A stretch of DNA of 64,000 bases, taken from contig NZ_CP029480.1 in NCBI RefSeq assembly GCF_003258705.1, positions 1,364,001 through 1,428,000 of the forward strand, given 5' to 3'. Origin of the DNA: Arcticibacterium luteifluviistationis. GTDB taxonomy: Bacteria > Bacteroidota > Bacteroidia > Cytophagales > Spirosomataceae. Below the pieces are notes generated by a model, which was given only the letters and a program-made list of their open reading frames with translations, searched no databases and was not told the origin of the DNA. A program made the position numbers and the translations under genes. Of this stretch, positions 48,697 through 56,446 are shown piece after piece; the stretch's first letter is position 1, and each line of letters begins with the position of its first letter.

Positions 48697-49644
48697 TTAT
48701 TGAAGTCTTTCTATACCTTTTAAAAGAAGTTGTTTTACGTCTATTTTCAGTTGTTCGGGTTCAATGATGTCGGCTACTTTTCCTAGGTATAAGAACCAAT
48801 GTGCGAAGCCCATTAAATTTCCAGTCAAAAAGCTCATTTCAATTTGATCTCCTAAATCTTTTTGAGAGATAAAACCCATGTAATAGTATTGGTCACCCAT
48901 ATATCTGAATCCCGTTTTGTCAATTCTCAAAACTACCTTAGTAAGGTTTTCTTTTGATTGTGTTTTACTAATGAAGGTTTTTAGTTTAGGGTGTTTTTTG
49001 TCAAAACGTTCCGTTTGAACAGCTAGGGCTGTTATTTTATCAATTCTGAAGTTGCGATAATCTTCTCTTAATCTACACCAAGCTATCAAATACCAATTAT
49101 CATTGCTTGAAAATATACCAATAGGTTCTATGTCTCTTTCGTTTTTTTCAAATCTAGAACCCGTAAAGTATTCTATTTTAATTATGTTTTTATTCAGAAT
49201 AGCTTTTAAGATTTCTTTGATGTTCAGCTGCTCGTTTCGTTCACTAGGAAGATAATTGTTCTCTAAAACTTCTATGTGTTGATAGGCATCATCCAATAAT
49301 TCCTTGTCTACATTTTTTAAGACCGATTTTATTTTAAACAAGGCAGACTCAAAAGACTTCTGGGTGTCATTATCGGTAAACTTAGAGACTAGTTTACCTG
49401 CGGTAAGAAAAGAAAAAGCTTCGTCTTCCGTGAATTGAACAGGTGGTAGTCTGTACTCTTTCATAATAGAGTAACCTACACCAGCTTCACTTAAAATAGG
49501 CACACCAGCTACTTCTAAAGCTCTAATGTCTCGGTATACGGTTCTCAGGCTAATGTCAAACCTATCCGCTATCTCTTGTGCCTTTATAATTCGTTTAGAT
49601 TGTAGCTGAATAAGTATTTCTGTAAGTCTGTTAAGGCGAGGCAT
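48697..49644 (-). CDS. HTH-WYL transcriptional regulator (YafY-like)
   Basis: The 315-aa DNA-binding protein has an N-terminal HTH (residues 5-60: LNRLTEILIQLQSKRIIKAQ, then ISLRTVYRDIRALEVAGVPI). A WYL domain (about 140-220) has FSSNDNWYLIAWCRLREDYR and NFRIDKI, and a C-terminal WCX-like part follows. WYL proteins sense ligands, often nucleic-acid-derived, and act as repressors or activators. The nearest likely target, the GyrI-like gene just downstream on the same strand, is broken. No operator was identified. Confidence 0.9.
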   Translation of the reverse strand: MPRLNRLTEILIQLQSKRIIKAQEIADRFDISLRTVYRDIRALEVAGVPILSEAGVGYSIMKEYRLPPVQFTEDEAFSFLTAGKLVSKFTDNDTQKSFESALFKIKSVLKNVDKELLDDAYQHIEVLENNYLPSERNEQLNIKEILKAILNKNIIKIEYFTGSRFEKNERDIEPIGIFSSNDNWYLIAWCRLREDYRNFRIDKITALAVQTERFDKKHPKLKTFISKTQSKENLTKVVLRIDKTGFRYMGDQYYYMGFISQKDLGDQIEMSFLTGNLMGFAHWFLYLGKVADIIEPEQLKIDVKQLLLKGIERLQ

Positions 49645-49713
49645 AAGGAGTACGGCTGTTCTATTTTAGGTCAAATATACATTTTCCATTTAAGTTTAAT
49701 CAAACATAGAAAA

Positions 49714-49740
49714 GCCGCACTTTAATTTAAAAAGTACGGC
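49714..49740 (-). terminator. Terminator after the carboxylesterase gene
   Basis: gccg-acttt and aaagt-cggc arms with one mismatch lie about 90 bp after the esterase stop (49829), before the regulator's start. Support is moderate because of the distance. Confidence 0.55.
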
Positions 49741-49828
49741 CTAGTGGTCTAGATTATAGGTTAGGTTTTAATAGCTCATCTTTTGTGGCTGAGAACAAAC
49801 CCAACCACAAAGACGATTTTCATCAGGG

Positions 49829-51460
49829 TTAATTATTTCCAAAAGCCTTATCGTGAAAATGATATCTGGCTTCTACAGTTGATTCTGCCGCTTTACTTTT
49901 AGTGTCAATAATCATATAAGAAGGTGTACTGTCAGTTGCTTCTATTGCTGGCCATTTAGGTAAGTCTCCTCCATTCGGTGTTCCAGTTTTTATGAAATTA
50001 GCAAAGTAAGAAAACATTGTTTTTGATACTTTATGGTCGTCTTCAGTCCAAGCAAACTCTTCTATTCTGTCTAAATTACCCATGGCATATTCTATTTCAC
50101 ATGCATGTGGTGCTCCTAAAGCCTTTGGTACTGCTGGAGCTTTATCAGCTTTTACTGTTCCTCCAGCTAGACCAGTTGCCAAGTCTTTGTTAACCAAAGG
50201 AGGACGAAGTTTGCTATATAAATATCTATAAACAGGTTGATTGCTATGGTTTTTATGAAGGTCTATCCATTTCCAAGTGCTGTAAACTATAAACCTGTCT
50301 GCAGCCAAATCTGTGGCAGAACGAGCCACCTCTGCTTCTGTAGCATGAGGGTATAATTTTAAAACTTCCTCGTATGCTTCTGGGTAGGTTTGTTTCGTTT
50401 TTTCTATAAAAGCGGCTGTGGTATAAGGTTGCCCTTGCATGTATGCCATCCCAGTGATTTCTGCTGAGTTCCATCCTGCTAAAAGTGGAACTTGAGCTTG
50501 CTCTTCTGCTTTGAACGTTTCCGTTAAACTTTTAGGTAAAAAGTAACCATCAATTACTAATGGAAAACCAAACCTTTTAGATTCGTTATAAATCTCGTAA
50601 ATATCTTTGGTGCTTAGGCTTCTTAATTCGTTAATGTTTTTAATACCAGCCTTCTCTAAAAACTCAGCTCCATTTTTTTCCGCATCAGCCAATGTTACTG
50701 GACCCATGGTAGGTGGAATAGCAGCTCCACTTTCGCCTATAGCACCATTTATTAATCCCTTAGCTAGTGGTGAGGCCATTTGAGTACTCACGCCAATAGA
50801 ACCAGCTGATTCTCCTGCTATGGTTACTTTGGAAGGGTTTCCGCCAAAGGCGTGGATGTTTTTTTGAACCCACTTTAGAGCAGCTACCTGGTCTAATGCT
50901 CCATAGTTTCCAGATGCTTTGTAAGGGGCCTCGGCACTAAGTTCTGGATGAGCTAAATAGCCAAATATATTTAATCTATAGTTACACGTTACTACCACTA
51001 TACCTTCTTTGGACATATTTTCGCCATCATATCTTGGCTCTGAGGCATCGCCTGCTACATTTCCGCCACCATAAAAGTATACTAATACGGGTAAGTCTTT
51101 TGTGTTTCTGTTTGCTGGTGTCCATACATTAAGATAAAGGCAATCTTCACTTAAACCATTTGAACGTGAGTTCATATCGCCAAAAACGATAGCTTGCATT
51201 GGTCTCGGACCAAACTCTTTTGTGCTTTTAACACCGTTCCAGTTATCTAAAGGTTGAGGGGCTTTCCAGCGTAGTTCATTAAGGGGTGGTTTAGCAAAAG
51301 GAACACCGAAGTATTTTTGAATACCAGTTTTGGTGTCATAGTTTCCTTCAATTATTCCATTATCAATTTTTGTTTGTACAGCAAACCCATTTTTATTTTG
51401 TGCCACTAATAAAGTAGGTGCTAATGCGACTAGACAAAGGAGTGTCCATCTTTTTCTCAT
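49829..51460 (-). CDS. Exported type-B carboxylesterase
   Basis: The 543-aa alpha/beta hydrolase has a Sec signal peptide (residues 1-20). The nucleophile elbow is GESAGS with Ser218, and the oxyanion-hole region reads VYFYGGGN (about 127-134). The N-terminal block FGVPFAKPPLNELRWKAPQP and SEDCLYLNVWTP are type-B esterase signatures. The catalytic histidine is likely in GAPHACEIEYAMGN. It would hydrolyse esters in the periplasm. It is divergent from a Nudix-HTH regulator, with a 12-bp inverted repeat beginning 6 bp upstream of its ATG, which suggests control by that regulator. Confidence 0.92.
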   Translation of the reverse strand: MRKRWTLLCLVALAPTLLVAQNKNGFAVQTKIDNGIIEGNYDTKTGIQKYFGVPFAKPPLNELRWKAPQPLDNWNGVKSTKEFGPRPMQAIVFGDMNSRSNGLSEDCLYLNVWTPANRNTKDLPVLVYFYGGGNVAGDASEPRYDGENMSKEGIVVVTCNYRLNIFGYLAHPELSAEAPYKASGNYGALDQVAALKWVQKNIHAFGGNPSKVTIAGESAGSIGVSTQMASPLAKGLINGAIGESGAAIPPTMGPVTLADAEKNGAEFLEKAGIKNINELRSLSTKDIYEIYNESKRFGFPLVIDGYFLPKSLTETFKAEEQAQVPLLAGWNSAEITGMAYMQGQPYTTAAFIEKTKQTYPEAYEEVLKLYPHATEAEVARSATDLAADRFIVYSTWKWIDLHKNHSNQPVYRYLYSKLRPPLVNKDLATGLAGGTVKADKAPAVPKALGAPHACEIEYAMGNLDRIEEFAWTEDDHKVSKTMFSYFANFIKTGTPNGGDLPKWPAIEATDSTPSYMIIDTKSKAAESTVEARYHFHDKAFGNN

Positions 51461-51465
51461 AGTAA

Positions 51466-51498
51466 ATTATTATTGTCTCACTTTGTGACAATAATAAT
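51466..51498. promoter_or_regulatory. Perfect 12-bp inverted repeat, candidate operator of the Nudix-HTH regulator
   Basis: ATTATTATTGTC (51466-51477), a 9-nt centre, then GACAATAATAAT (51487-51498). It lies between the divergent esterase (start 51460) and regulator (start 51547). TTGTC/GACAA half-sites resemble those of NrtR-type Nudix regulators. It could block both promoters or autoregulate. Confidence 0.65.
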
Positions 51499-51546
51499 GG
51501 GCTTTGTCTGAAAATCCTATTATTTTGCAGAAAAACAATATTTAGC

Positions 51547-52266
51547 TTGGCTATACTAGACGGTGAATCTTTCTTACCAAATCTTGCTTTTGATTCTGTG
51601 GTTTTTGGTTTTTCGGGTGGGAGTTTGAAAATTCTCATCATGGAGTATCATAATACTGGGCTTTTTGCTTTACCTGGTGGTTTTGTAAAGTTTAATGAGG
51701 ATTTGAACGAGGCGGTAAAGAGAGGTTTGAAAGAAAGAACTGGCTTGGAGGATATTTATTTAGAGCAGTTTTACACCTTTGGTAATTTCAAAAGAAACCA
51801 GACCAATGATATGCGGACTATTCTAAAGACCAACGAGGTTGATTTAGATAAGAATGCTTGGCTGCTAGATAGAATGGTTTCTGTAGCCTACTATGCATTG
51901 ATTAATTATGAAGACGTAGTTCCCAAACCTGACTATCTTTCAGATTCTTGTGAATGGTATGATGTGGAGCAATTACCTGATTTGATTCAAGACCATAAAG
52001 ACATTGTAGAAAAGGCTCTAGAAACTCTTCGGGTCAATATTGACAGGAAATTAATAGGGGTCAATCTTTTACCTCAAAAGTTTACCATGAAAGAGCTTCA
52101 AGGTGTATATGAGGCTATTTTGGGTGAGAAACTTAGACGAACAAGCTTTCAACGGAAAATACTAGGACTTAGTATTTTAGAACGCCATGAAAAGCAATTC
52201 TCAGGAGCAGCCAATAAAGCCCCATTTCTATATAGCTTTAGCACAAAAAAAGAGACTCCAAATTAA
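51547..52266 (+). CDS. Nudix-HTH transcriptional regulator (NrtR-like)
   Basis: The 239-aa protein has an N-terminal Nudix fold (about 10-150) and a C-terminal winged HTH (about 165-225: LLPQKFTMKELQGVYEAILG, then RTSFQRKIL). The Nudix box reads GGFVKFNEDLNEAVKRGLKE followed by RTGLED. The canonical REUxEE is RGLKER, so key catalytic glutamates are lost. It is probably a sensor, not a hydrolase, as in Bacteroides AraR and related NrtR-type repressors. The frame begins at TTG 51547; no better ATG is nearby. It is divergent from the carboxylesterase. Confidence 0.85.
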   Translation: MAILDGESFLPNLAFDSVVFGFSGGSLKILIMEYHNTGLFALPGGFVKFNEDLNEAVKRGLKERTGLEDIYLEQFYTFGNFKRNQTNDMRTILKTNEVDLDKNAWLLDRMVSVAYYALINYEDVVPKPDYLSDSCEWYDVEQLPDLIQDHKDIVEKALETLRVNIDRKLIGVNLLPQKFTMKELQGVYEAILGEKLRRTSFQRKILGLSILERHEKQFSGAANKAPFLYSFSTKKETPN

Positions 52267-52277
52267 TTTGAAGTCTC
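52252..52277 (+). terminator. Terminator overlapping the regulator's stop codon
   Basis: gagact-caaat and atttg-agtctc arms overlap the last codons and stop of the Nudix-HTH gene. A T-rich stretch (cttatttatatc) follows. One mismatch; support is moderate. Confidence 0.5.
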
Positions 52278-52306
52278 CTTATTTATATCAAAAAAGGTAT
52301 TTGATA

Positions 52307-56412: not shown

Positions 56413-56446
56413 AAGAAAGCCGAACTCTTCAGAGTTCGGCTTTCTT
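56413..56446. terminator. Bidirectional terminator
   Basis: Perfect 16-bp arms (aagaaagccgaactct / agagttcggctttctt) with a 2-nt loop lie between the convergent rhodanese and porV genes, 5 bp after the rhodanese stop. Confidence 0.9.

Follow-up and report, generated by a model that had tools for sequence, protein, structure and literature searches.

In the 64,000-nucleotide stretch of Arcticibacterium luteifluviistationis DNA analysed here (the window), two divergent genes are separated by a palindrome to which, very probably, a protein resembling sugar regulators binds to control a secreted esterase. The arrangement of regulator, operator and esterase is kept in many related bacteria and appears from sequence comparison to be a genuine, if rather ordinary, switch in gene regulation. 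We put a probability of a little over 80% on the reading that the regulator is a dimeric repressor of the NrtR/AraR family that binds positions 51470 to 51494, represses the esterase and probably itself, and is released by a ligand. A regulator dimer would bind this 25-bp palindrome through its C-terminal winged helix and, sitting between both promoters and within a few bases of the esterase start codon, would block transcription of the esterase and probably also of its own gene. The signal would be a small molecule, probably derived from what is set free by the esterase and its partner enzymes, which enters the dead Nudix pocket and lowers the affinity for DNA, switching both genes on. Comparative evidence supports the family assignment, the operator, its pairing with both regulator clade and esterases, and a contact residue that varies together with the operator; dimer formation, repression and release by a ligand are carried over from AraR and NrtR, which PMC4666351 describes as ligand-released repressors.

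The regulator gene (51547 to 52266, plus strand) encodes an NrtR/AraR-family Nudix-type transcriptional regulator of 239 amino acids. It has no in-frame ATG near its N terminus and a TTG as its sole candidate start, and its close relatives at L014 and L016 likewise lack an ATG there. The protein matches Pfam families NUDIX (PF00293), NrtR_WHD (PF21906) and AraR_C (PF19368), all above cut-offs, and its best PDB relatives by phmmer are AraR (5bs6; 7.9e-34) and Shewanella NrtR (SoNrtR; 2.7e-17). An AlphaFold2 model made with 17 aligned sequences (mean pLDDT 84, pTM 0.79) has AraR as its first fold match and SoNrtR as its second. Pfam, phmmer and fold matches thus agree with an earlier note on this DNA, which had recognized a Nudix protein of NrtR/AraR type. 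In line with the family, an N-terminal Nudix-like domain precedes a C-terminal NrtR-type winged helix for DNA binding (52057 to 52239, plus strand), the Nudix signature is impaired, and a predicted palindromic operator lies beside the regulator and its targets. The degraded Nudix box (residues 45 to 67; 51679 to 51747, plus strand), of the pattern G-x5-E-x7-RGLKERTGL, reads GFVKFNE-x7-RGLKERTGL, so that RGLKER does stand in place of REUxEE, as the same note had said, and two of the three glutamates are replaced. The last of them is Arg64 in all 81 clade members (the best 80 of 440 loci plus the window), and the same kind of glutamate loss is described for AraR and NrtR in PMC4666351. An insertion of about 20 residues after Arg83 (residues 84 to 107; 51796 to 51867, plus strand) is partly helical in the model and has no counterpart in AraR or SoNrtR. 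The genome encodes four NrtR-type proteins in all.

The operator, to which no strand is assigned, contains a perfect 12-bp inverted repeat spanning 33 bp (51466 to 51498). The repeat reads ATTATTATTGTC-TCACTTTGT-GACAATAATAAT, the left arm ATTATTATTGTC at 51466 to 51477 having its exact complement at 51487 to 51498 across a 9-bp spacer. Conserved TCA and TG bases within this spacer make the operator longer than the 12-bp inverted repeat described previously: the 25-bp operator TTATTGTCTCAnnnTGnGACAATAA has the inverted repeat as its core, and the stretch 51470 to 51494 (TTATTGTCTCACTTTGTGACAATAA) is conserved at orthologous regulators. The operator lies in the 86-bp divergent gap (51461 to 51546) between the esterase ATG on the minus strand and the TTG start of the regulator on the plus strand. 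Repeat, spacer and gap match their earlier description exactly; the distance from the esterase ATG to the first arm is 5 bp instead of the 6 bp given there. The 64-kb window has six exact repeats with arms of at least 12 bp and loops of at most 20, whereas 50 dinucleotide shuffles average 0.08, so they cannot be put down to chance. Some of the six are probably terminators, such as that at 56413 between two convergent genes; unlike it, the repeat at 51466 to 51498 sits between two divergent starts. The earlier suggestion to look for the palindrome elsewhere in the genome led to a single occurrence of the exact core TATTGTCNCANNNTGNNACAATA in 5.38 Mb, the next best being sites with two mismatches. 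A sigma-70 promoter scan was disregarded because that promoter type is not the one used in Bacteroidota. In relatives, a TAnnTTTG-like box can be seen by eye downstream of the operator, and we take TAnnTTTG to be the consensus of the Bacteroidota promoter type.

Conservation of the operator was followed at 80 loci gathered from genome contigs by regulator similarity (the best 80 of 440, a regulator-seeded set that includes near copies). Scored against the site of the window, with a threshold of at least 17/22, 78 of these best 80 of 440 loci have a site near the regulator, compared with 1 of 1,600 shuffles, in keeping with the earlier proposal, which had turned on the palindrome being kept beside orthologues. 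Upstream regions of other genes reach the threshold in 3 of 889 cases, one of which is the esterase of L078, where the regulator-side score is 13 and the esterase, one gene away, bears a site scoring 21. When 80 of the 81 sites (those of the best 80 of 440 loci and the window, L078 being left out for its low score) are aligned, nine positions never vary and the core reads TTGTnnCAnnnTGnnACAA. A repeat in this position might instead act as RNA, as a hairpin that sits in the esterase leader immediately ahead of the start codon and restricts translation or RNA decay; the minus-strand RNA of the repeat does fold at -11.3 kcal/mol (z -4.4), with none of 200 shuffles as stable. We regard this as very unlikely, since in the 80 aligned sites, from the best 80 of 440 loci, Watson-Crick pairing is seen in only 41 cases at 8-18 and in 18 at 9-17 while the half-site bases are invariant, the site persists at loci that lack the esterase on that side (L081, L102, L099 and L121), and a residue of the recognition helix co-varies with the site (see below).

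Among the same best 80 of 440 loci, a directly divergent esterase with at least 58% identity is present in 67, and the remaining 13 lack a close esterase in this position. At L086 and L088 a COesterase of 30% identity occupies the divergent position, at L078 and L098 the esterase is present further away, and at L090, L096, L099 and L121 a remote COesterase (about 30%) lies downstream of the regulator; the esterase search gave no match at L081, L093, L102, L107 and L114. Relatives from the family and order whose regulators are at least 54% identical (L014 to L029) have the esterase in 16 of 16 cases, compared with 0 of 13 below 54% (L030 to L042). In a tree built from all 19 paralogue rows and 47 of the 97 from the clade, a 100/99 branch separates every sampled clade member from the paralogues, so the esterase-linked regulators form one fully supported clade with a single origin. 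The operator lies a median of 16 bp from the esterase start (65 loci including the window, in 16 of which the ORF start is a TTG inside the operator). Binding might also switch the esterase on, the regulator being an activator, or repress it without release by a ligand, and activator sites are found in divergent gaps too; we consider this unlikely, because in most of the best 80 of 440 loci the site is no more than about 20 bp from where the esterase begins, a usual position for a repressor, and AraR and NrtR act as such.

The assignment of the operator to the Nudix-type protein draws on contact residues mapped by alignment with published contacts. Residue 200 of the regulator (52144 to 52146) corresponds to the base-contacting Asn181 of AraR. 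Where this residue is Thr, Ser or Ala, operator base 8 is C in 68 of 71 cases, against 2 of 9 where it is Asn or Gly (best 80 of 440 loci; Fisher p 1.3e-6 with kinship ignored), a p-value that overstates the case because the nine Asn/Gly rows stem from few lineages (five from Algoriphagus, two from Muricauda/Flagellimonas and two others). The exceptions are L105, L108 and L120, with Thr, Ser or Ala and no C at base 8, and L082 and L118, with Asn200 and C. In Asn200 paralogues, where a palindrome was seen, it is related but different. This co-variation links the Nudix-type regulator to the palindrome. It points away from the notion that the operator belongs to another regulator, such as the WYL-domain protein encoded on the same strand as the esterase about 185 bp downstream of it (48697 to 49644), with the Nudix-type gene merely a target. 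That notion seems highly improbable, as the WYL gene is in no neighbour cluster common to at least three loci, the Nudix-type clade travels with the motif, and paralogous NrtR-type genes bear related palindromes of their own (L032, L038 and L039).

Several of these paralogues can be described further. One in the same genome (L002; 2495351 to 2496061), with 45% identity, has the imperfect upstream palindrome TTATTGTCTATTTTTTAGACATTGA and sits near a sulfatase-family gene; its relatives L038, L039 and L167 have a near-perfect TTGTCTA...TAGACAA palindrome. In another group of NrtR-type paralogues (L032, L162 and L166), TATTGTATCAnnnTGATACAATA-like palindromes adjoin the regulator. TTGTC is typical of the esterase-linked clade and of some paralogues. 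Taken with those of the esterase clade, the paralogue palindromes suggest a readable helix-to-operator code.

The presumed target is a secreted COesterase-family carboxylesterase of 543 amino acids (49829 to 51460, minus strand), with a signal-peptide-like N terminus and an intact triad, Ser218-Glu334-His452, that includes the GESAG serine and the Glu and His expected of the family. Ser218 is found in 69 of 69 orthologues, Glu334 in 68 and His452 in 67, the remainder being gaps; the characterized relatives are all distant. Terminator-like hairpins, both pattern matches, lie after the esterase and before the WYL-domain regulator gene (49712 to 49742, minus strand) and at the end of the regulator gene (52249 to 52280, unstranded, reported for the minus strand). 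Since they end both genes, the unit is minimal and self-contained in the window. The earlier view of a self-contained module thus stands here but does not always apply in other genomes, in which the operator is also found at the head of larger clusters and at esterases unlinked to the regulator.

Scanning 148 genomes of the order for the motif first, without protein seeding, gave 10 sites (control, 0), of which 7 lie beside regulator and esterase, 2, from one genus, beside a COesterase only, and 1 beside neither. Relaxed sites occur at COesterases without an adjoining regulator (L152/L172, L171 and L168), and one (L169) adjoins a pair of PF00756 esterases. Neither esterase nor regulator is near L178 or the one-mismatch site L149/L173, so the motif occurs elsewhere too; several other relaxed sites besides L173 have nothing relevant nearby. 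Among the best 80 of 440 loci, a TIM-barrel isomerase-like protein is present in 23 and often follows the regulator in marine Flavobacteriaceae, which also have a lactone-oxidase-like flavoprotein (8 loci), a second COesterase and GH3 (11). Downstream of the esterase, Runella, Emticicia and others have additional esterases, a CitMHS transporter (11 loci) and AtuA-type proteins. At L050, L056, L098 and L120, a CitMHS transporter, an AtuA protein and several esterases cluster beside the module, and the L050 cluster additionally holds an AtuA ferredoxin-like protein.

Within the genome itself, the two-mismatch sites are all inside ORFs except one at 2232679 (L125/L174), about 90 bp upstream of a gene for a TIM-barrel-like lipoprotein. 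This protein is possibly a second target, a lead and not yet a target; it has about 22% identity to two locus proteins and no match to the recurrent TIM-barrel cluster C2. A larger regulon in this genome was rejected on the grounds of the intra-ORF positions and the weak relationship of the lipoprotein. As to substrate, genes for pectinesterase, GH88 and GH28 lie beside some sites, but their homologues occur in just 1, 2 and 3 of the best 80 of 440 loci, so we do not name pectin. A citrate-like substrate was considered in view of CitMHS in 11 of the same 80. A sugar or ester product, the ligand suggested earlier, is a compatible candidate.

Overall, comparative evidence indicates a regulon that is new and specific to one branch of a known regulator family. 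No description of an esterase-linked regulon turned up in the literature searched, and the founding NrtR paper or others may mention one. A further non-NAD branch of NrtR would thereby gain a defined operator and target across several Bacteroidota orders, with a specificity residue and pocket residues named and directly testable, and identifying the ligand of the sensor would help to find what this widespread secreted esterase naturally acts on.

Among characterized proteins, the best PDB match by both sequence and fold is AraR of Bacteroides thetaiotaomicron (BT0354; PDB 5bs6, 5ddg and 5deq; PMC4666351), which shares with the window regulator its phylum, a Nudix-like domain plus winged helix, a degraded Nudix box and a semi-palindromic operator. 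The AraR target is the ara operon, whereas that of the window regulator appears to be an esterase, and AraR lacks the insertion of about 20 residues. AraR reads a GTGT half-site, in contrast to TTGTnnCAnnnTGnnACAA (TTGTnnCA), and operator motifs are highly variable within the family (PMC4666351), so the earlier statement that NrtR/AraR proteins bind TTGTC-like palindromes does not hold in general. The DNA contacts differ as well, the series Lys179/Arg180/Asn181/Lys184 being replaced by Arg198/Thr199/Ser200/Arg203, so that Thr199 and Ser200 take the places of the intercalating Arg180 and base-contacting Asn181; the regulator therefore has neither the GTGT operator nor the contact series of AraR. 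In the arabinose site, Arg86 and His131 are retained as Arg83 and His150, which all 81 clade members have (the best 80 of 440 loci plus the window), but the contact Arg34 (Arg41 in SoNrtR) is Tyr34 in all of the same 81, leaving the set Arg34/Arg86/His131 incomplete, and AraR Leu67 is Arg64. The second sugar-type NrtR regulator of Bacteroides, XylR (BT0791), predicted by comparative genomics, belongs to the same family and phylum and adjoins xylose genes; it is likened to the window regulator by its description in PMC3878776 and PMC4666351. The fumonisin B1 esterase (8s6d) and p-nitrobenzyl esterase (1qe3) share the COesterase family, GESAG nucleophile, Glu and His with the window esterase and are remote from it, and their substrates are not transferable. 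The NrtR of Shewanella oneidensis (PDB 3gz5, 3gz6 and 3gz8) has the same fold as the window regulator, which differs in the insertion 84 to 107 and in Tyr34 for Arg41. No NAD gene is found among the annotated recurrent neighbours, which are esterases, TIM-barrel isomerase-like proteins, GH3, lactone oxidase and CitMHS, and the NAD linkage of NrtR is thus absent from them. SoNrtR Asn43 and Arg95 are retained as Asn36, invariant in 17 aligned regulator sequences, and Arg83, and Lys76 is replaced by Arg64; Asn43 and Lys76 contact ADP-ribose at its alpha-phosphate (PMC4666351). The pocket comparison argues against L-arabinose and ADP-ribose as such, and because the ligand-binding Arg is Tyr and two phosphate-contact positions of SoNrtR are kept or basic, we infer that a neutral sugar is no likelier as the ligand than an anionic molecule. 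Quite tentatively, the clade may be a separate NrtR branch whose operator specificity is set partly by residue 200. Instead of a pentose or ADP-ribose, it would sense an anionic breakdown product of an ester or glycoside (a sugar acid, uronate or sugar phosphate), the acid group of which would rest on Arg64 in place of a catalytic Nudix-box glutamate.
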